From Beta vulgaris subsp. vulgaris (lineage: Eukaryota; Streptophyta; Magnoliopsida; Caryophyllales; Amaranthaceae), in NCBI RefSeq assembly GCF_026745355.1, contig NC_079206.1, positions 41,399,536-41,463,535 of the forward strand: DNA of 64,000 nt, written 5' to 3'. Position numbers and translations under genes: made by a program. Below the pieces are notes generated by a model. It was not told the origin of the DNA. It saw nothing but the letters and a program-made list of their open reading frames with translations, and did not search any database. Positions within the stretch are counted from its first letter, which is position 1. The number at the start of each line of letters is the position of its first letter. Shown piece by piece: positions 1,063 to 37,343 of the stretch.

Positions 1063-4000
1063 TTAATCAGCTATTTCTTTGCCAACGTAAAATCCCTTAT
1101 TGTGGTCTCGACGAATGTAATTTGTGTCTAGATCTTCCCCTAATGTACTTGGAATGACTATTGACGAAGCAATGACTTCATTGAATTGGCATCGTAATCT
1201 TTTCATCGTGTACATCATCAATTCCAAGTATTCTCCTTTTTCCTTCCATGACAACAAACCATTTTGAATCGGCAGGGTCAACCATGTAGAATACTTGTTT
1301 TGCTTGTGATGCCAATATTAAGTTATCTTCATGATGTCCTAACCGGCTGAAATTGACTAATGTAAAAAAGTCATGTTCATCCTTCTCCACACCACGACGA
1401 ATATCAACCCACTTACATTGAACAGCGGAATTTTGAAGTCAACATAGTCAAGTTCTAATATCTCTTCAATGAACCTATAGTTTGACTTCATTGTCTCAAC
1501 AATCGTTCTATATCTTTTACTTTTATACTCTGATGACAAAGCCCCCATCGTAACACCACTATTTTGCATCGTGGAGTTGTCATCTTGCCGCTTAGTGTAA
1601 AATGTATAACCATTGATGTCATACCCCTCATAGGAAAGAACTTGGGCCTTTGACCCATATGCCAACCATTTCAACGTATCCGATACATCGTTAGGAGTAT
1701 CAGATAATTGTTTCATAACTCGTTCTATAAACCAATCAACGAACGTTCGATTATGCCCAATCATCAACTCGCGTTCAATCTTCAATGGATGCTGAAAACA
1801 AAGCACAGTCATGTGCTCATCTAAGTAAGGATGAACTTGTTTCAGATTTTCTAACACAATCAATTCTGCTTTTCTTTTCAACTCTCCATTAGACACAATC
1901 TTTTTCTCCCAATGGTCACAACCTTCAAGCCTTCCTTCATGTCTAGATTTTGGCAAACCAATTGCTTGTGCACGTGCAAAATACTGACTTCATATTCAGA
2001 TACTTCCTCAGCAACTGTTCTTTGACAATACTTGCTTCTGGTCTAGCTTGATTCATCACTTTACCCTTCAGAGTACCCATATGTCTTTCAAAAGGCCACA
2101 TATACCTCATACAAACGGGCCCACAAAGTTTAATTTCTCTGACAAGATGGATTATCAAATGAGGCATGATGTCAAAGAATGATGGTGGAAAGTACATTTC
2201 AAATCGGCACATCGTCTCTATTACATCGGCTTGCAAGTTATTAAATGTTAGGATCAATCACCTTGTAGAGATAGTTCTGAAGAAACACAACTTTTGTGTT
2301 ATATCTTACTTGGGAAGGCAAATTCCTCGTATTGCAACAGGTAATATAATGCTGCATCAAGATATGACAATCATAGATTTCAAACCAACAAGTTTCAAGT
2401 CCTTCAGTGAACAAGGTTTCGGAAATTTGACGAGTATCCAGCAGGAACCTTTAACCTATGCAGGACTCACAAAAACTAGTTTTCTCCTTCTTAGACAAAG
2501 TGTAGCAAGCTGGTGGAAGATAATAGCGTTGTCCCCGCTCCTGAGGTGCTAGTTCTAGTCTGCCCATTTCAGCCATGACTTTCCTGGCTTTAACTCCATC
2601 CTTTGTCTTCCCGGGCATATTCAACAATATTCCGACAATGGCATCACAAACATTTTTCTCAATGTGCATTAAATCAAGACAATGTCTGACTTCCAAACAT
2701 TCCCAATACGGAAGGTCCCAAAACTTAGATCTTCTCTTGTATAAGTTCTTTGAGACACTTTGAAGGGCTTGCCAAAAATGTTTCAATATCCTTTACCCTA
2801 TTAGAAACCTCTTTTCCACGTAAGGTACAGGGGCTTCTCTCATTCCACTTTTCCAGTTGAACAACTTTTTTTTCTTACGGAATGGATGATCTAAAGGAAG
2901 CCATGTACGATAATGCAGGTACACATTCTTCCCACAAAGATGTAACCGCTTGTCAATCATATCATCATCAAAATAGGGCATGCCTTTGCTCCTTTAACCG
3001 TATACCCTGACAAATTCCCATAATCGGGAAATCACTAATCGTGCAAAATATCATGGCATGCAATGTGAAGTCAGTTTTCGCATACGCATCGAACATGGAA
3101 ACACCTTCATCCCACAACAATTTCAGTTCTTGAAGGAGTGGGTCAAGATACACATCTATGTCGTTTCCGGGTTGCTTAGGACCCGAAATAAGAAGCGATA
3201 GCATAGTAAATTTACGCTTCATACATAACTAGGGAGGGAGATTATAACTTGTCAGTAGAACCGGCCAAGTGTTATGTTGGGTACCTGGTGTGCCAAATGG
3301 GTTCATCCCATCTGTACAAAGTCCAAGCCTAATATTTTGAGGTTCATTACCGAAATCGGGAAACTTTCGGTCGATATTTCTCCATTGCGGAAAATCGGCC
3401 AGATGTTTAAGCATCCCATCTTTCTTTCTCTCGTCCGCATGCCATCTTAATAATTTAGCATTCTTTTCATCAGAAAATAAACGCCTAAATCGCGGAATGA
3501 TTGGAAGATACCAAAGAACCTTCGTCGGAGTTTCTTTATTTCTCATCCCCTCATCATTATTCTCTTTTACCTTGTATTGAGACTTTCCACAATCATTTTT
3601 ACATGCATGTATCTTCTCATATTCCATACCTGATGGACACAACAGTTTCATTGCCTCGTAGGCAGAGTTTGGCATTTCATTCCCTTCAGGTAGCAATTCT
3701 TGTAAAAAAGTGAACAACTCACTTAGACTTTTATTTGTCCAACTATGCTTCGATTTCATATTGAACAATGTGAGGATGCCAGAAAGTTTAGTGAAATTCT
3801 TACACCCCGGATACATAGGTTTTCCGCTGCACTTAAAATACTATCATACATATGCGGATGATCGGTTCTTTCATCCTCCATATTGTGCAACATCTCATCT
3901 ACTTTATCATTTTCATCATCTACCATATCATTTTCGTCATCTACCCTATCATTCTCATAATCAGCATCTCCTTTAATCTCAACCTCAACCTCATCAACAT

Positions 4001-4247
4001 GAAAATCATCACACAAGCTAGTGGAGCTCATACCCATATCATAAAACTCTCCATGCCATGTCCACCTGGTATAGTTACTCTTAAGCACATGACGACTCAA
4101 ATGATCTTTAATTTGACCCATATCACGATACTCCCTTGAGTTATTGCAATCACAACAAGAACACAAGACTAACTTTGTCCCATTCTGCGATTGATGCTCT
4201 ACGCAACTCCCATATTCATACAGTAGAGACACCAAATATGAACACAA
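1063..4247 (-). pseudogene. TNP2-type CACTA transposase, frameshifted
   Basis: Consecutive minus-strand frames give the domain order of plant En/Spm transposases. A transposase-associated N-terminus with Cys-rich CSCCDCNN and TRWTWHGE lies at 4247-4010. The TNP2 catalytic region (3816-2451) has SLLISGPKQPGNDIDVYL and LPYWECLEVRHCLDLMHIEK. A DUF4218 region with MYFPPSFFDIMPHLIIHLVR follows (2257-1500), then a DUF4216 region with LASQAKQVFYMVDPADSKW (about 1430-1178). The reading frame changes at several points (near 3816/3756, 3222, 2980, 2790, 2450, 1950 and 1390), and these junctions do not look like introns, so the gene is decayed. It would encode the enzyme that cuts the element's CACTA ends. 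A second, better preserved relative is at 25531-28885. Confidence 0.88.
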
Positions 4248-4324
4248 TCGATCACATCATTCAAAGTGGTTTATCAAATGCAGTCATGACCATTTGGGTC
4301 CTTATCACTCCAGCCTAACCCATC

Positions 4325-4595
4325 CTTGAGTTTCTCATCTCACTAGTGAATGAACATTTGGTTTTCAATTCTAAGAAAAATCCGGCAGCACTTCCCTATA
4401 GTTCTCCAAGTAGACGATGAAGATAGTAGTTAAACTATCAACATATGTACCCAGAGAACGCTTAGGTAAATGAGCGGGATCTTTCTTAGAATCAAAAACC
4501 AAACATTCATTCACATCCTAAGTGAGATAAGAAACTCAAAGACAGTCCCAAAACGGGGACTATTCAAGACTTACTCCTAATGAGTAAGCCTCGAA
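4325..4595 (-). ncRNA. Three-hairpin structured leader of CACTA family A
   Basis: On the minus (sense) strand three inverted repeats follow one another: a 14-bp stem (4582-4595 with 4563-4576, two G-U pairs), a 6-bp AGTCCC/GGGACT stem (4556-4561 with 4544-4549), and a long arm-to-arm hairpin of about 215 nt whose base pairs 4521-4541 with 4325-4344. The same three structures in the same order occur in the other TNP2 element at 25078-25349, with different stem sequences. The block lies just upstream of the transposase gene, so it would be in the 5' leader or a leader intron. Function is unknown. A microRNA-like or siRNA precursor or a translational control element are possibilities. Confidence 0.65.
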
Positions 4596-4639
4596 CGGGT
4601 ATCTAGGCAAATGATGCACATTGCAATAAAACAACACAA

Positions 4640-5811: not shown

Positions 5812-6134
5812 GGTAATTTGCGTCGGACAGGTTAGAGGGTTCGACGCACATAGCTCTTTTGCGTCGCACATCCCTTAGTGCGACGCAGATTGTCCTCAGT
5901 TTCTCCCCACTAAGATGCAACAATATGCGTCGCACCACATCAGCATGCGACGCAAAAAGGCAATATGCGTCGCACATAATGAGGGTGCGACGCATATTGC
6001 TCGTACCTGATACATGATTGTTGATGTTTTGCGTCGTTCACAGTGTGTCATACAATGCAAATAGGGTTTTTGCTTCATTTACGTTTCAGTGCGAGGCACA
6101 TCAGGGGATGCAAATCATCGTTTTTCTACTAGTG
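5812..6134 (-). repeat. Terminal and subterminal repeat region of CACTA family A
   Basis: Short palindromic copies of TGCGTCGCAC / GTGCGACGCA (with variants such as TGCGTCGGAC) recur every 15-40 bp next to the CACTAGTAG terminus. In En/Spm elements such subterminal motifs are the binding sites of the element's own TnpA-like protein. That role is inferred here from position and repetition. Confidence 0.8.
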
Positions 6135-22479: not shown

Positions 22480-24045
22480 TGAGCTCTTGGGAAGTTTATT
22501 AATGTTCATATTATACGACATGTTTAGAGTTATATAAAGTAATGATTAGAGTTATAGACATTCTTGGTTAGAGTTATATAATACTAACTTATTTCCTTTG
22601 ATACTAATTACAATTATGGTAAAACTTCTTTAGAGTTATATGAATGAGTAGTTAGAGTTATATGAAATAATTATTACAGTTATGCTGACACATGTTTAGG
22701 AATTGTACAATAACCTCTTTAGAGTTATAAGAAATAGTCATTAGAGTTATGCCAACACTTATTCAGAGTTATAGAAATTACTAATTAGAGTTATAGGGGT
22801 ATTTGAGTAGTTGTAAGAGTTATTAATTATAGTTATAGCATTACTTGTTATGTACGTTCTAATTAGAAGAGTTATAGGACCATTTGATAAGAGTTATAGG
22901 ATTTACTAATTAAAGTTACAGGAGTAATTGACATGTCATACTATTATAGATAGTTGTTTTTTTTTTACATATTAATGTATTATTGTTGTTACAATTAGAA
23001 TAAAAAGGTATACAATGCTGCAAACTTTATAAATATGAAAGTGAAATCATTCTTACCCCTCTCTTATATTGCCATTGTTGTTGTTGTTACATGAAGAAGG
23101 CGCTTGGTTGGTTGATGTTGGCAAGACTGCTTGGTTGGAAATCATGACATTGATGTTGGCAAGACTGCTTGGTTGATATTATTTTAGTAATATTATTGTA
23201 ATTATTGTAATTATATGTACGTGTTCAAAATATTTTAAATATATATGTTGATATAACTCTAATTAAATTATTGTAATTGTTATAATATAATCATTTCATC
23301 TACCATGATAAAAAGATTTATGGCATGTTGTCGTTATAATTATGGCGTTACTTGTTAAGAGTGCTAATTAAAGTTATAGGCGTATGTGGTTTGAGTTATA
23401 TGAATTATTAATTAGAGTTATAGGAGTATTTGCACTATTCGTAAGAATTTTAATTATATTTATGGCATTACTCATAATGTACTTCTAATTAGAGTTATAA
23501 GAGTCTTTGATTAGAGTTATGAGAGTATTTGATTAGAGTTATATGAATTACTAATTAAAGTTGTTATTTTCTACAACTCTAAATAAGTTTACGTAATATC
23601 AATTTTCCTATATATAATATAACTCTATACAAATCCTGATGTAACTCTAATTACTATTGCATATAACTCTAAAGAATTGTTGTCATAATTCTAATTTTAT
23701 TTTCAACAACTCTAAAGAAATGTTTTCGTAATTCTAATTACTAGTCCCTATAAATTTATACAAAATTTTCTTATTTGTAACTCTAATTAGTATTTTCTAT
23801 AACAAAAAACAAGTGTTATTGTAACTCTAATTACAATTTTCTAAAACTCAAACAAGTATTGTACTCATAGCTATAATACCATTTCCTATAATTTCTAGAG
23901 AAGAGATGGCGTAACTATAATATGTATTTTCTACAACTCTAAACAAGTGTAGATGGCGTAACTATAATATGTATTTTCTACAACTCTAAACAAGTGTAGC
24001 TGCAACTCTAGTTACTACTTGTTATAACTCCAAACAAGTAATTTA
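22480..24045. repeat. Degenerate 'agagttata / ataactctaa' motif array, inverting at about 23575
   Basis: Dozens of GAGTTATA-type motifs 20-45 bp apart run in one orientation to about 23570, then switch to the reverse complement (TAACTCTAA) up to 24045. The array resumes at 36600-37145 after the CACTA element that split it. A 48-bp unit is tandemly duplicated near 23905-24000, and another short duplication (gttggcaagactgcttggtt) is at about 23110-23180. Confidence 0.85.
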
Positions 24046-24063
24046 CACTAGGGGAAAAAATCG

Positions 24064-24358
24064 AAAGGGCTGCGCAAGTAGGGCTGCGCATTTTAAAAAA
24101 GCGCAGCCCTATTGATGAAGGGCTGCGCTTTTTAAAAAAAGCGCAGCCCTTTTGTATGAAGGGCTGCGCTTTTTTTAAAAAGCGCAGCCCTACCTACAGA
24201 AGGGCTGCGCTTTTTAGAAAAGCGCAGCCCTTCTGTAGGTGAAGGGCTGCGCTTTTTAGGAGGCGCAGCCCTTCACATGCAGAAGGGCTGCGCTTTTCTA
24301 AAAGGCGCAGCCCTTCTATGTGTAGGGCTGCGCTTTTTTGAAACTAGCGCAGCCCTTC
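24064..24358. repeat. Left subterminal hairpin array of CACTA family D
   Basis: Alternating AGGGCTGCGC and GCGCAGCCCT copies enclose short A/T spacers (for example GCTTTTTAAAAAAAGC), so successive 28-45 bp units each fold into a hairpin. About seven pairs are present. Confidence 0.9.
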
Positions 24359-25077
24359 ATTCAAATTTTTTTTTTTCGATACAAGCTATGTAGCGCGCCT
24401 TACTTCATTTTCCCACTTTCATTCTCTCTCTTCCTTCTTACTACCCAAGTGCGATTTTCCTTCATTCTCTCTCTTCACTTCTTCGAGTTGCACCACCACC
24501 ACCACCACCACATTGGTGCCCTAATTCGCGCACCACCACCCCTTCAGCACCACCACCCTTCGCGCACCACCACCCCTTCGCGCACCACATTTCGCACACC
24601 ACACCCCAATTCGCACACCACATTTCGCGCACCACCACCCCTTTGCGCACCACCCTTGCGCACCACCCCTTTCGCACCACCCTTCTCTTCTCTTTATTTT
24701 CTTCTCTTCTCCACCATTTGAGTGGTTAATTAGGTATGGATTAATTTTGTTTTTAAGTTACTTTTGTTTTGTTAAATTGAATTAAATGGTTAATGTGCAA
24801 TGTGGGTTTTGTCAATTGTAGGAAGAAGAGGCTAAGGAAGGCAAGTAAAGTTCCAAGTATCTCTTTTCTCTTCATTGCTCGTCGTTGGTGTTAAGAGGTA
24901 ACTATTTTAACATGTAGACAAAGTTGATAATTTATTGAATGTATATGTATTTTTTATAATGTATATATAATTATTATTGTTGATATGAGATTGTATGAAA
25001 AGCAATGTGATTTAGCTATATATATGAAAATATATAAGTAGTTGTTTGAATCATCATCATATATGCCTAGATACCCG
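24359..25077 (+). other. Promoter/5' leader and leader introns of the family D transposase
   Basis: CT-rich sequence (24415-24480) leads into a CACCAC/CGCACC-rich stretch up to 24710, typical of a transcribed leader. Splice-like signals follow (ggttaattaggta). The open frame here, with a run of seven His codons, only reflects this repeat and is not called as a gene. Nothing else is seen to 25077. Confidence 0.45.
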
Positions 25078-25349
25078 TTCAAGACTTACTCATTAGGGGT
25101 AAGTCTTGAATAGTCCCCGGTTTGGGACTGTTCTTGGACGTTTGATCTCACTTAGGTGGTGAATGTGTGTCTTCTTTTCAATTCTGAGGAAAATCTTGGC
25201 TTATCGTTTCGCTACATTGTTCTCTGGGTACATATGTAGATAAGCAATTATCTACATTGTGTACTTGGAGAACTGTAGGGAAATGCTGCCGGATTTTCCT
25301 TAGAATTGGAAAGTTGGCATATATTCACTAGTGAGATTAGACGTCCAAG
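25078..25349 (+). ncRNA. Three-hairpin structured leader of CACTA family D
   Basis: Hairpin 1: TTCAAGACTTAC (25078-25089) pairs perfectly with GTAAGTCTTGAA (25099-25110). Hairpin 2: AGTCCC (25112-25117) with GGGACT (25124-25129). Hairpin 3: about 215 nt, base CTTGGACGTTTGATCTCACT (25133-25152) with AGTGAGATTAGACGTCCAAG (25330-25349), paired through two G-U wobbles. The arms continue to pair (AATTCTGAGGAAAATC with GATTTTCCTTAGAATT) up to an apical TGTAGATAA/TTATCTACA stem. The same architecture with other stem sequences lies at 4325-4595. It ends about 180 bp before the transposase start codon. Confidence 0.75.
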
Positions 25350-25530
25350 GATGGGTTAGGTTGGAGTGATAAGGACCTTTGACTGCATGCATACAATTGA
25401 ACATGTGACTATCTTAGCTTGTTGTATACGTGTGTGATTTGAATATGTGAGTGTATGTGTACTTTAATAATGATTGATGCATTATAATGAATGTTGTGTT
25501 TAATTATTAGAGGTGGTCTTCTTGAATGAG

Positions 25531-28500
25531 ATGGATCGTACTTGGATGTATGGTAGTCGTGAATCGATTGAGTTTGTGAATGGGGTCTCGGAATTCTGTA
25601 GAAGTGCATTAGAATATCAAACATCCTCTGGAGCAGTCGACTTTTATTGTCCTTGTTTGGATTGTAGAAATGTGAGCAAGGTTAGTAGTATACATGTGGT
25701 TAGGGAGCATGTATTTCGCCGTGGGTTTAGGCCTCAATACCATGTATGGATTTGGCATGGTGAGCAGGGGAGGTATATGGGAAGCTCTGGATTAAAGAAT
25801 GATGTATGTGAAGAAAAAAAAGAAGGATGATGATGAGTTAGGGGATGAGAATTTGGATGATGAATTTGGAGATGATGATAGGGATCGGGTAGACGAGATG
25901 ATACACGAGGTTGAAGATCAGTCGTGTAGACGACCTCGTATTTTTGAGTCTATGTCTAAGGCTGCTGAAAAGCCGTTGTATCCAGGTTGTACAAAGTACA
26001 CCAAACTTTCTGCAGTGGTAACACTGTTCAACATTAAGTCGAACGCTGGTTGGACGGACTCTAGTTTCACATCGTTGTTGGAAGTTTTAGCTGAGATGCT
26101 CCCTGAAGGAAATGAACTGCCAAAGTCGTACTATTATGCGAAGAAGTTGATGTGTCCTTTGGGTTTAGAGTACGAGCGGATACATGCTTGTCCTAACGAT
26201 TGTGTGCTCTATCGTAATGAGTATGAGCATTTACATGAGTGTCCACGTTGTGGATTGTCGAGGTACAAGCGTGAAGGAGCTGGAGGTAGTGAAGGACCAC
26301 CAGCCAAGGTGTTGTGGTATCTACCCATAATACCTAGATTTAAGCGCATGTTCTCAATGAAAGGAGATGCGAAGAATTTGAGGTGGCATGCAGATCGTAG
26401 GAAGAAAGACGGTCTGCTCAAGCATCCGGCTGATTCGCCTGAGTGGAAAACTATCGACAGGGTGCATAAGTCATTTGGTAATGAGGATAGGAATCTGAGG
26501 CTTGGATTATGTACGGATGGCATGAACCCTTTTGGCAATCTCAGCTCGCAGCATAGCACATGGCCAGTAGTTTTAGTGGTTTATAACTTGCCTCCTTGGT
26601 TGTGCATGAAACGTAAGTACATGATGTTGTCGCTTCTTATATCGGGGCCCAAACAACCTGGAAATGACATAGATGTATACCTTCAGCCGCTTGTTGAAGA
26701 TTTACAGAAGATGTGGAACGAAGGAGTGTTAGTATTTGATGCGTATGCTAATGAGATGTTCACTCTGCGTGCCATGCTTTTTTGTACTATGAACGATTAT
26801 CCAGCTTATGGGAACTTATCTGGGTATAAGACTAAAGGAAAACAACCTTGCCCGATTTGTTTAGATGACATGAAATCTACACACCTTAAGGGCTGCAAAC
26901 ATGTGTATATGCGCACACGAAGGCTCCTCAGCCGCGACCATCCCTATCGGTTTAAGAAGAAGGCATTCGATGGGACGGTTGAAGAAGTTGCTCGTAGACC
27001 ATTAACTGGTACTGAAGTTTATAATCAGGTGAAGGGCATTGAAACAGTCTTTGGTAAACCTGCTAGTGAGGTTGATAGACCTACAGGATTATGGAAAAAA
27101 CAGTCCATTTTTTGGAAACTCCCATATTGGAAAGATCTAAAGGTCAGACATTGTTTGGATGTCATGCACATAGAGAAGAATGTTTGTGAAGCTATTATCG
27201 CGACACTTATGAATATTCCGGGTAAGACAAAAGATGTTAAGGCGTCACGACTTTACTTGGAAAAGAGGGGATTCGACCAGAGTTGTGGGCTCAGAAAAGG
27301 GACGGAAGAAAGAAGAAAAGAGGGGAGGAAAGGGTTGATGATGATGAAACACATAAAAGTAAAAAGGTGGAGGATTCTGAGAGGAATTATTTGCCACCAG
27401 CTTGCTACACGATGTCGCGTGCAGAGAAACGGATTTTTTGCGAGTCATTGTATGGCATTAAGGTCCCTACTGGCTACTCATCGAATATGAAGCGCTTTGT
27501 TACCTTAAATGGTGAGTTGAAGTTATCGAGTATGAAATCGCACGATTGTCATGTCATGATGCAAGTATTCTTACCGATTGCAATTCGTGGGATACTTCCA
27601 AAGCATGTGAGGCACACCATTACAGAACTGTGTTCATTTTTTCATTCAATCTGCAGCAAAGTCCTAGACCCGTCGACCTCGATTCCTTGCAGACTAGAGT
27701 AGTTGAAACTCTATGCAAATTTGAGATGTATTTCCCCCCTGCATTCTTTGACATTATGGTCCATCTCATTGTCCATCTAGTTCGAGAAATTAAGCTGTGT
27801 GGTCCAGTGTTTTTGAGGTGGTGCTATCCTTTTGAGAGATATATGGGAACTTTGAAAGATAAAGTTCGTAATCCTGCACAACCAGAAGGTAGTATAATTC
27901 AAGGGATTGTGGGTGAAGAGATCAGTAATTTTGTGGCTGAGTATTTTGCTAGTGTTGATCCTGTTGGACTTCCGACATCCCGACACGAGGGCAGACTTGA
28001 GGGCAAGGGTACAATTGGTTCAAAATTGATCACACCTTCCGTAGAAAAGCGTAAACAAGCTCACTTATTTGTATTGCATCACGTACCAGATGTCCATCCT
28101 TATTTAAGTGAACATATGGAGGAATTACGTGTTAGCAATCCTGGAAAAGGAGTGAGGGCATTGACGCAAATGCATAACAAGACTTTCATTGATTGGTTTC
28201 ATAAACGAGTACTCAATGATTTGGATGAAAGTGTTCCTGAAACAGTCAAGTGGTTAGCATTTGGTCCTCGTGAAGCTGTACGCTCTTATGAGGGTTATGA
28301 TATTAATGGGTATACTTTTTGGACTGAACGTCAAGATCTCAAGTCAAGATCGCAACAAAATAGTGGTGTTTCACTTGTGGCGTCGTCTACACAATATGCA
28401 AGCTCGAAAGATAAGTCGCCTGTACATGCTGAAAGCAACTACTATGGGCGAATACAAGAAATCTGGGAGCTGGACTACTGTACATTTAATATTTGCCTCT

Positions 28501-28885
28501 TGTGTTGCACGTGGGTTGACAATAATCGCCGTTGTGTAAGAAACGATGATCCTTGCGGTTTCACCCTTGTTGACCTTAGTCGTTTACGTGAAACTGAGGA
28601 GCCATTTGTAATTGCATCACAAGTGAAGCAAGTATTTTTTGTAACTGATCCTGCTGATCATAAGTGGTCAATTGTTGTACCTGGTAAAAGGAGTATCCTC
28701 GGTATTGGTGATGTTGATAATGAGGAAGAATATGATGCATTTGAGGACCTCCCCCCTTTACCTATCCTGAAATTCGTGTGGAAGATGATGTAAATATGTC
28801 GGAGAATTATATGCGTGTAGATCACACGGAAGGGATACATGTACTTGAGGATCCTAAGAAAAGGCGGAAGCTCAATGAATCATGA
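25531..28885 (+). pseudogene. TNP2-type CACTA transposase, frameshifted at homopolymers
   Basis: The start MDRTWMYGSRESIEFVNGV follows a splice acceptor (ttattag) at 25510. Domains in order: transposase-associated N-terminus with CPCLDCRN and YHVWIWHGE; TNP2 core with LYPGCTKYTKLSAVVTLF, GPKQPGNDIDVYLQPL, CPICLDDM and VRHCLDVMHIEKNVCE; DUF4218 with MYFPPAFFDIMVHLIVHLVR; DUF4216 with IASQVKQVFFVTDPADHKW; end KKRRKLNES. The frame changes at an A-run near 25811, a G-run near 27268, near 27680 and at a C-run near 28752. Four frameshifts in about 3.3 kb show that no full-length transposase can be made. The protein would bind and cut the CACTA termini. The relative at 1063-4247 is more decayed. Confidence 0.93.
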
Positions 28886-28911: not shown

Positions 28912-30190
28912 CTCCAATTTTTAGGCTTCAATTTCTTGTTGGTTGCATTTTGGGAACGAAAAGGCCATTTCCGGCCTATTTTGGCCTATTTTGGCCTTTT
29001 CGCTCCCAAAATGTACTTATGAAGTGATTTAACCTCAAATTCTTTTTGAACATGATATATGATGTATAATGTAACTAGTATGTAGATTTTTAGGCTTTAA
29101 TTTCTTGTTGGTTGATTTTGGGAACGAAAAGGCCATTTCCGGCCTATTTTGGCCTATTTTGGCCTTTTCGCTCCCAAAATGTACTTATGAAGTGATTTAA
29201 CCTCAAATTCTTTTTGAACATGATCATATGAGTATAATGTAACTAGTATGTAGATTTTTAGGCTTTAATTTCTTGTTGGTTGGATTTTGGGAACGAAAAG
29301 GCCATTTCCGGCCTATTTTGGCCTATTTTGGCCTTTTCGCTCCCAAAATGTACTTATGAAGTGATTTAACCTCAAATTCTTTTTGAACATGATCATATGA
29401 TGTATAATGTAACTAGTATGTAGATTTTTAGGCTTTAATTTCTTGTTGGTTGGATTTTGGGAACGAAAAGGCCATTTCCGGCCTATTTTGGCCTATTTTG
29501 GCCTTTTCGCTCCCAAAATGTACTTATGAAGTGATTTAACCTCAAATTCTTTTTGAACATGATCATATGATGTATAATGTAACTAGTATGTAGATTTTTA
29601 GGCTTTAATTTCTTGTTGGTTGGATTTTGGGAACGAAAAGGCCATTTCCGGCCTATTTTGGCCTATTTTGGCCTTTTCGCTCCCAAAATGTACTTATGAA
29701 GTGATTTAACCTCAAATTCTTTTTGAACATGATCATATGATGTATAATGTAACTAGTATGTAGATTTTTAGGCTTTAATTTCTTGTTGGTTGCATTTCGG
29801 GAACGAAAAGGCCATTTCCGGCCTATTTTGGCCTATTTTGGCCTTTTCGCTCCCAAAATGTACTTATGAAGTGATTTAACCTCAAATTCTTTTTGAACAT
29901 GATCATATGATGTATAATGTAACTAGTATGTAGATTTTTAGGCTTTAATTTCTTGTTGGTTGCATTTCGGGAACGAAAAGGCCATTTCCGGCCTATTTTG
30001 GCCTATTTTGGCCTTTTCGCTCCCAAAATGTACTTATGAAGTGATTTAACCTCAAATTCTTTTTGAACATGATCATATGATGTATAATGTAACTAGTATG
30101 TAGATTTTTAGCTTTAATTTCTTGTTGGTTGCATTTCGGGAACGAAAAGGCCATTTCCGGCCTATTTCGGCCTATTTTGGCCTTTTCGCA
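28912..30190 (+). repeat. 170-bp tandem satellite array 1 in CACTA family D
   Basis: About eight units with a 170-bp period: the TGTAGATTTTTAGGCTT start recurs at 29249, 29419, 29589, 29759, 29929 and 30099. Each unit contains an inverted repeat around GGAACGAAAAGGCC...GGCCTTTTCGCTCCC with GGCCTATTTTGGCC between. Units are near-identical, implying recent amplification. The last unit runs straight into the C-rich tract at its 'cgcaccc' position. Confidence 0.95.
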
Positions 30191-31017
30191 CCCATGCCCG
30201 CCCACACCCCATGCCCACCCCCCCCTTGCCCCACCCCACCCCACCCCCCTTGCCCACCTCCTCCCCCACCATGCTGCCCCCCCTTCCCCCCCTGCACACC
30301 CCCCACCCCCCTGCCCCCCCTTTCCCCCTGCAGACCCCCCAACCCCCCGCCCCCCCCTTTCCCCCTGCAGACCCCCAACCCCCCCCGCCCCCTTTCCCCC
30401 TGCAGACCCCCCACCCCCCTGCCCCCTTTCCCCCTGCAGACCCCCCAACCCCCCTGCCCCCCTTCCCCCTGCAGACCCCCAACCCCCCCCTTCCCCCCTG
30501 CAGACCCCCAACCCCCCTTTCCCCCCTGCAGACCCCCACACCCCCCTGCCCTCCCCCCCCCCTGCAGACCCCCAACCCCCCTGCCCCCCCCCTTCCCCCC
30601 CACATGCGACCCCCACACCCCCCTGCCCCCCCTTTCCCCCCTGCAGACCCCCACACCCCCTGCCCCCCTTTCCCCCCCTGCAGACCCCACACCCCCTGCC
30701 CCCTTTCCCCCTGCAGACCCCCACACCCCCCCTGCCCCCCCTTTCCCCCCTGCAGACCCCCCAACCCCCTGCCCCACCCCCCCCTTCCCCTGCAGACCCC
30801 CCAACCCCCTGCCCCCTTCCCCCTGCAGACCCCCACCCCTGCCCCCCCCCTTCCCCCCTGCAGACCCCCCAACCCCCTGCCCCCCCTTTCCCCTGCAGCC
30901 CACCCCCGCCCCCCCCTTTCCCCCCTGCAGACCCCCACACCCCCCTGCCCCCTCCTTCCCCCCCTGCAGACCCCCCACCCCCCCCCCTTCCCCCTCAGCC
31001 CCACACCCCCCCTTTAA
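30191..31017 (+). repeat. C-rich minisatellite, about 825 bp, with repeated CTGCAG
   Basis: Almost pure C runs are broken by CTGCAGACCCCC, TTTCCCCC and AACCCC blocks in units of roughly 30-40 bp. About 20 PstI-type CTGCAG sites occur. The plus strand has virtually no G outside CTGCAG, so the other strand is extremely G-rich. The long Pro-rich and Gly-rich frames on both strands are by-products of this composition. Confidence 0.95.
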
Positions 31018-37145: not shown

Positions 37146-37275
37146 AATAAACTACACTAGCTTGAGTAATAATAACAAAAGAAGTTCGACTCTACCTAAA
37201 ACTTACATGATTGCAATTGTACAAAATAATTTTTTATATGTTTAACTTTCTAACGTCTAACAAGAGTCATTTCAT

Positions 37276-37343
37276 AACCTATGTAGGAATCGAACCCACA
37301 TCTTGTGCATAGCACAATGCTCTTCCAGTTGAGCTAATAGGTT
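37276..37343 (-). tRNA. tRNA-like sequence, probably a pseudogene or SINE head
   Basis: On the minus strand 68 nt form a perfect 7-bp acceptor stem (AACCTAT/ATAGGTT), a D-arm GCTC...GAGC with A-box TAGCTCAACTGG, and a T-arm GTGGG-TTCGATT-CCTAC with B-box GGTTCGATTCC. The anticodon arm is abnormal (TTGTGC-TAT-GCACAA palindrome or a mispaired 5-bp stem with loop CTATGCA) and the variable loop is too short. Overall it looks derived from a tRNA-Ile-like gene. Both internal polymerase III promoter boxes are intact. A functional tRNA is unlikely. Confidence 0.5.

Follow-up and report, generated by a model that had tools for sequence, protein, structure and literature searches.

A conserved, covarying RNA module upstream of the transposase gene in one clade of beet CACTA/TNP2 transposons

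We found that the 64,000-nt stretch of Beta vulgaris DNA analyzed here (the window) contains two copies of a conserved RNA module of ~312 nt, located at 25066–25377 on the plus strand and at 4297–4607 on the minus strand, each upstream of the transposase gene of a CACTA element. At the level of sequence, the comparisons establish its predicted fold, the maintenance of that fold, its sense orientation, hundreds of copies of its motifs, and its place ~500–530 nt before the transposase match at 18 of 25 loci examined. The fold of the sense transcript is very probably under selection, and the RNA as such very probably has a function. The reading that we favor, at a probability of about 0.4, is that in one plant CACTA/TNP2 clade the sense transposase transcript carries the module as a conserved structured domain, which would act in cis on the pre-mRNA. 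The data discriminate well between function and its absence but poorly between cis control and a small-RNA precursor; cis control of the transposase pre-mRNA is favored with modest confidence. In DNA transposons, the protein and the terminal repeats are usually expected to be under selection, and, to our knowledge, covarying RNA structures have rarely been described in cut-and-paste elements.

Architecture of the module and its host elements

Read 5' to 3', the module opens with one strand of an outer stem, P0, followed by the short hairpins H1 and H2 and a long hairpin, H3, of 217 nt in both window copies; the second strand of P0 and a tail of 17 unpaired nt complete it. P0 closes a four-way junction around H1, H2, and H3. 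The preliminary description had reported three ordered hairpins in two elements. Both copies are present with the order and positions it gave, and all three hairpins are correct, with H1 lengthened from 12–14 bp to 15 bp in the consensus and H2 and H3 at 6 bp and 217 nt. The span of 25078–25349 that it assigned does hold the module but is too narrow, the conserved island being 25066–25377. That description did not include P0 or the tail, nor did it give the copy number, the constant spacing from the transposase, or the signs of an intron instead of a leader exon. The features are as follows.

25066–25377, plus: conserved RNA module, subfamily s1 copy (alignment, fold, consensus, covariation)
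25066–25076, plus: P0 outer stem, 5' side (CCUA, bulge GAU, ACCC; consensus fold)
25077–25111, plus: H1, 15-bp hairpin (fold and consensus)
25112–25129, plus: H2, 6-bp hairpin, loop CGGUUU (fold and consensus)
25130–25351, plus: H3, long hairpin, core 25133–25349 (217 nt; fold, consensus, covariation)
25219–25237, plus: conserved 19-nt block in the H3 5' arm (identical between s1 and s2 representatives)
25259–25282, plus: conserved 24-nt block in the H3 3' arm (identical between s1 and s2 representatives)
25353–25360, plus: P0 outer stem, 3' side (GGGU-UAGG; consensus fold)
25361–25377, plus: unpaired 3' tail UUGGAGUGAUAAGGACC (identical in three lineage representatives)
4297–4607, minus: conserved RNA module, subfamily s2 copy (~98% identity to copies L032–L040)
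24046–24061, plus: element 1, 5' terminal repeat (CACTAGGGGAAAAAAT); the homology of many other copies starts at ~24040–24047
24066–24359, plus: element 1, subterminal repeats (AGGGCTGCGCTTTT, both orientations; sequence and inverted-repeat arms)
24898–25510, plus: putative last 5'-UTR intron of the transposase gene (GAG/GTAACT ... TTATTAG/AG), holding the module (from sequence)
25531–25755, plus: element 1, N-terminal Transpos_assoc domain (PF13963, 59.6 bits)
25799–27490, plus: element 1, TNP2 transposase ORF (PF02992, 299.9 bits)
27546–28793, plus: element 1, C-terminal part of the transposase gene (DUF4218, DUF4216)
6121–6134, minus: element 2, 5' terminal repeat (CACTAGTAGAAAAA; read in the sequence)
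3229–4247, minus: element 2, remains of the transposase N-terminal part (two overlapping ORFs in different frames; PF13963 in 3756–4247)

As single-strand RNA, 25066–25385 (plus) is predicted to fold at −176.7 kcal/mol (z = −21.5) and 4280–4607 (minus) at −165.0 kcal/mol (z = −16.8); 0 of 100 shuffles were as stable in either case, which rules out a chance hairpin. The two conserved blocks of H3, at 25219–25237 and 25259–25282, pair partially with each other across the arms. In addition, the loop of H2 (25118–25123) could pair with ACC at the end of the tail (25375–25377), a possible pseudoknot that, if formed, would explain the sharp 3' border of the module.

The host elements resemble CACTA (En/Spm) transposons in their CACTA terminus, subterminal repeats, TNP2, Transpos_assoc, DUF4218, and DUF4216. 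Both terminal and subterminal CACTA repeats are present, the 5' ends lie at 24046 (plus, starting with CACTAGGGGAAAA) and 6134 (minus), and TNP2 and Transpos_assoc are found with all profile scores over the cut-off. In the window copy of element 1, the ORFs at 25531 and 25799 lie in different reading frames, so this copy is unlikely to be intact; in element 2, the transposase frame is broken and PF13963 scores 31.2 bits, above the cut-off. Downstream of the transposase exons of element 1, a tandem array of ~170-nt units with a GGGAACGAAAAGGCC...GGCCTTTTCGCTCCC palindrome occupies 28946–30140 and adjoins an extremely C-rich minisatellite of CCCCCTGCAGACCCCC-like units (30200–31010), whose long proline-/glycine-rich ORFs are probably spurious.

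The genome holds 847 matches to the H1 motif (at most 3 mismatches) and 614 to the H2/H3-foot motif (at most 2 mismatches), with 0 matches for either reversed-pattern control. Among the matches listed (100 per motif), nearly all belong to the two subfamilies s1, which is like the copy at 25078, and s2, which is like the copy at 4325. At least 18 of 25 TNP2 matches examined on C1 and C2, two contigs, which are s1/s3-type transposase loci, have a module copy 497–532 nt upstream on the same strand; the other 7 have no upstream module among the matches listed, of which 9 of the 100 for one motif entered this comparison. Two further loci were read over ~550 nt, one with the module (L091) and one without it (L092). 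The 1,500 nt upstream of 30 other Transpos_assoc loci gave no blastn match to the module (0/30), which rules it out as a general feature of beet TNP2 genes; the eight of these loci with long ORFs all fall outside the s1/s2 clade. A single one of the 30, L082, a beet TNP2 element, has an equally strong upstream hairpin (−215 kcal/mol in 300 nt, ~750–1100 nt into the oriented locus), of a sequence unrelated to the module.

Maintenance of the fold and its strand asymmetry

The RNA domain is better kept between the two lineages than the transposase coding sequence: the s1 and s2 modules are 79–82% identical, and the transposase coding DNA is 66% identical, with agreement at 33/88 fourfold sites and 62.7–64.6% of the residues shared. 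Beyond the modules, no blastn match longer than 150 nt occurs until the transposase core. In the intron stretches flanking the module, 79/130 and 37/77 aligned positions agree between s1 and s2; the shuffle comparison covers the 37/77 stretch only, and its agreement is no better than that of shuffles (mean 0.49). The strongest conservation is situated outside the long hairpin, in P0-H1-H2 and the tail. P0-H1-H2 is identical at 61/64 positions between the s1 and s2 representatives, and the last 25 nt of the module are identical (25/25) in three lineage representatives, with one base difference each in the window copy at 4297 and in copy L091. This distribution fits a cis domain rather than hairpin cargo alone. 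In H3, 79/113 positions of the 5' arm and 85/104 of the 3' arm are identical between s1 and s2 (p = 0.057); in its upper part, which was chosen after inspection, the 3' arm agrees at 54/59 positions vs. 44/63 for the 5' arm (Fisher p = 0.003).

Between the s1 and s2 representatives (L032 for s2), 36 base changes occur in the 117 consensus pairs and none breaks a pair, with 18 pairs changed on one side, all via G-U, and 9 on both sides. Random placing of the same 36 changes kept 100.8 ± 1.8 pairs, and 109 at the highest in 5,000 draws; the consensus pairs were drawn from the same sequences in which they were tested. With an s1-only structure, 91 pairs are unchanged in s2, 20 are kept by one change, 9 are kept by two, 6 are broken, and 2 are gapped, giving 120 kept of the 126 ungapped pairs. 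The two window copies set against each other have 2 of the 117 consensus pairs broken, and a decayed copy from a third lineage, L095, has 6.

The broader alignment of 26 distinct copies comprises L095 and 25 distinct sequences from 61 scanned copies, 60 of which were selected as those matching the two window modules best. In this alignment, 99.4% of the cells pair, vs. 36–48% with the partners slid. The covariation score is above all 500 shuffles and 12 pairs are changed on both sides (shuffled mean 9.1; 1 of 500 shuffles reaches 12), results not to be read as probabilities because most rows are close copies; the number of further pair types, 37, is not above the shuffles (mean 39.0). Covariation above the substitution and slide controls, as expected of a structured RNA, was found in what are in effect three lineages, one of them decayed. 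The compensatory changes reported earlier at the foot of H3 were recovered: the foot keeps its pairing in both copies through 5 double substitutions. In H1, three pairs vary, always between A-U and G-U. P0 is conserved in sequence but hardly covaries, showing a single G-U change (L016) and a single broken pair (L095). Many of the differences of L095 from s1 are C-to-T and G-to-A, the pattern that methylation and decay would leave, and its H3 foot is still paired despite the decay.

The preliminary description had further stated that imperfect pairs in the basal stems are G-U in the sense RNA and not A-C, a rule that is borne out and extends past these stems. When the H3 arms are aligned strand-symmetrically, the 25078 copy has 13 G-U and 0 A-C transition mismatches and the 4325 copy 10 and 0, accompanied by 5 and 10 transversion mismatches, respectively. 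The lineage representatives L001 and L032 carry 13 and 11 G-U mismatches, some of them shared by descent, and no A-C mismatch; the decayed L095 carries 8 G-U and 3 A-C. As a control, 30 other inverted-repeat pairs were taken from the window and from locus L061 onward, leaving out L093 and L094; many of them overlap and come from the same tandem arrays, and together they total 80 G-U and 148 A-C. None of the 30 has at least 8 transitions all of one kind, and four of them, in two arrays, have 0 G-U and 6 A-C.

These counts bear on the explanation that the module is a DNA palindrome with no RNA function, such as a transposase site or a cruciform, whose arms owe their pairing to template switching or to gene conversion. 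Gene conversion can create double changes without selection. However, it acts on both strands alike and leaves the arms exactly complementary, whereas the mismatches retained in L001 and L032 are exclusively G-U among the transitions. Furthermore, all 18 single changes between s1 and s2 keep the sense pair through G-U, and H1, H2, the loops, and the tail are conserved too. Because of the G-U strand bias, arm conversion at the DNA level does not account for the data, and we regard this explanation as very improbable. Selection on the fold is instead very probable because the changes keep the pairs, double changes occur, and the mismatches in the s1 and s2 arms are G-U and never A-C; the earlier proposal of such selection on the sense RNA thus gains support from the third lineage, the substitution null, and the strand test.

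Putative intron placement and possible roles of the RNA

The splice-site-like sequences suggest that the module lies within a ~613-nt 5'-UTR intron, the last before the start codon. A donor-like GAG/GT precedes the module in both elements (24898; 4824, minus), and an acceptor-like sequence is located before the start codon, TTATTAG at 25504–25510 in s1 and CTCTAG in the s2 copies L032 and L041. The window copy of element 2 has AC at the site where L032 and L041 have the acceptor AG, which fits decay and gives the intron model no help. A pyrimidine-AG at most 45 nt before the start codon was observed at 30/30 other Transpos_assoc loci vs. 71% of shuffles, a weak result because these loci are related to each other. 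Of the regulatory leader that the preliminary description proposed, the selected RNA fold in the sense transcript stands, but the term leader is doubtful, since 3'-splice-site-like sequences adjoin the start codon.

An AG (CCUAG or CCCAG) is present at the 5' edge of the module, at the foot of P0, in three representatives. If the module works in cis on the transposase pre-mRNA, this AG could act as an upstream 3' splice site. A closed P0 would hide this upstream acceptor, and the whole module would be removed via the downstream acceptor to give a translatable mRNA. A module retained in the mRNA would, in contrast, block scanning by its fold of approximately −170 kcal/mol and its AUGs, turning the transposase off. 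The choice between the two outcomes could be tuned by a protein or small RNA bound at the tail or at the junction, both of them conserved, and this would limit the transposase dose. The splice sites are read from the sequence, and the gating step at P0 is a guess. The near absence of covariation in P0 counts against the cis model, which leaves the 217-nt length of H3 and the two-arm conservation of its upper part unexplained. If the module controls splicing or silencing, it would offer a handle on the self-limitation of a high-copy plant transposon or on its escape from RNA-directed silencing.

A serious, if doubtful, possibility is that the transcript is a small-RNA precursor, with H3 diced into a microRNA or hairpin siRNAs that would act in trans, for example on a host silencing gene. 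Plant MIRNA genes are recognized by a single foldback holding a 20–24-nt duplex with few mismatches and by discrete miRNA/miRNA* reads with 2-nt overhangs. H3 is a long, nearly perfect foldback in which, according to the predicted structure, such a duplex can be accommodated, and the 19- and 24-nt blocks on opposite arms near its top are identical in s1 and s2. The better-kept 3' arm of the upper H3 points in the same direction (p = 0.003 for the part chosen after inspection; p = 0.057 for the whole arms). A precedent exists in rice miR820, which, according to PMC3459959, is borne by a CACTA element, acts on DRM2, has five copies in Nipponbare, and shows homology to this host gene. Pre-miR820 and the module are both foldback RNAs inside a CACTA transposon, but the module differs in its hundreds of motif copies, its repeated place before TNP2, its multi-helix domain, and its conserved junction and tail; in addition, two DNA searches returned, among the 40 of 1002 candidates scored in each, only module copies and neither host homology nor a host gene fragment. 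The Rfam matches below the gathering level are mostly to long-hairpin miRNA models (MIR7533, MIR1319, MIR837, and mir-5014), the best being MIR7533 (E = 5.7e-10). These models share the long stem with the module, but score 23–53 bits against gathering scores of 101–230 (53.4 against 230 for the best), following the stem with no convincing shared sequence, and no known MIR family is matched at the gathering level in Rfam. The most conserved parts of the module lie outside H3, and the literature search by module fragments yielded no small RNA.

Adenovirus VA RNA binds a host protein, and, by analogy, the excised domain might be a trans-acting stable RNA or decoy that binds, for example, a protein of the dsRNA/Dicer pathway. 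The multi-helix fold, the sharp borders, the conserved junction and tail, and the G-U pairs through much of H3 would suit such an RNA, but it has no Rfam relative at the gathering level, and we consider this role improbable. A structured 5' leader acting on translation, through internal entry or a ribosome shunt, appears less probable still. In the shunt leaders of plant pararetroviruses, a conserved short ORF ends just before the hairpin, and a 16-codon ORF of s1 starting at 25063 likewise ends just before H2-H3, with its frame open from the ATG in L095. However, the start of this ORF is TTG in two s2 copies (window and L091) and two of its codons change the amino acid from s1 to s2, which rules out a conserved peptide or shunt ORF; the 4 ATGs inside the module, the 9 in the 153 nt after it, and the acceptor-like AG downstream also speak against a leader acting on translation. 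For a DNA transposon, a packaging signal would serve no evident purpose.

Known relatives and age of the module

In Rfam 15, the whole window gave no gathering-level match except a tRNA gene at 37275–37343 on the minus strand (RF00005, 47.5 bits). A self-cleaving ribozyme, a snoRNA, and a tRNA-like element were rejected, the module having no Rfam match at the gathering score. A literature search by twelve module fragments, with preprints and most subscription papers outside its reach, found nothing relevant (one unrelated kinesin paper). Both results agree with the earlier remark that no description of the module was known. Viral and prokaryotic collections contained two matches to a 16-base pattern, which look like chance, and none to the tail. 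The papers on Chenopodium CACTA elements and CACTA introns (PMC8978399, PMC4158355) do not use the terms hairpin or secondary structure. For the beet element Coe1, PMC2426827 reports inverted repeats around the transposase gene and does not use the word hairpin, and these repeats are set beside the module by description alone. In maize, miRNA-like hairpins have been predicted sequence by sequence in genes and TEs, and LinearPartition hairpins in CACTA elements are biased to the terminal repeats, according to the accessible sections of PMC10760457. The maize hairpins and the module share strong predicted secondary structure inside CACTA elements, but a conserved fold is described for the module and, in those sections, for none of the maize hairpins.

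The third lineage, s3, is represented by the decayed copy L095, located 510 nt before a TNP2 that is 83% identical to the Beta protein P0049. Another P0049-like TNP2 (86%) has the H1 motif at 532 nt, and two further P0049-like matches on C2 (86% and 83%) have no module among the matches listed. At P0049's own copy on C12, unrelated sequence fills the 351 nt where the module would be expected, which counts against a complete s3 set. This stretch upstream of the beet P0049 gene (L096) contains TGGTATCAGAGC, which resembles an LTR-retrotransposon primer binding site, and the P0049 element may be interrupted there.

In two TNP2 protein trees, s1 clusters with Beta P0049 and with proteins from spinach (88/80 and 90/83), s2 clusters with Orobanche minor P0007 and the contig protein P0005 (100/99), and both fall within one clade (100/99) with some Chenopodium, Silene, and Cuscuta proteins. 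The s1 and s2 lineages are interleaved with the TNP2 of spinach, quinoa, Silene, Cuscuta, and Orobanche, which suggests that the module is older than these lineages or has been exchanged between beet elements; if it is older, it is expected in the elements of those plants. A bolder reading, which we put forward tentatively and rate on the unlikely side, is that of an ancient ncRNA of a plant DNA-transposon clade that predates the s1/s2 split, a new RNA class setting the transposase dose or disarming host silencing. Compared with 25799–27490, the parasitic-plant TNP2 relatives from Cuscuta epithymum (71%) and Orobanche minor (65%) lie inside the Amaranthaceae-element clade, and horizontal transfer is possible.
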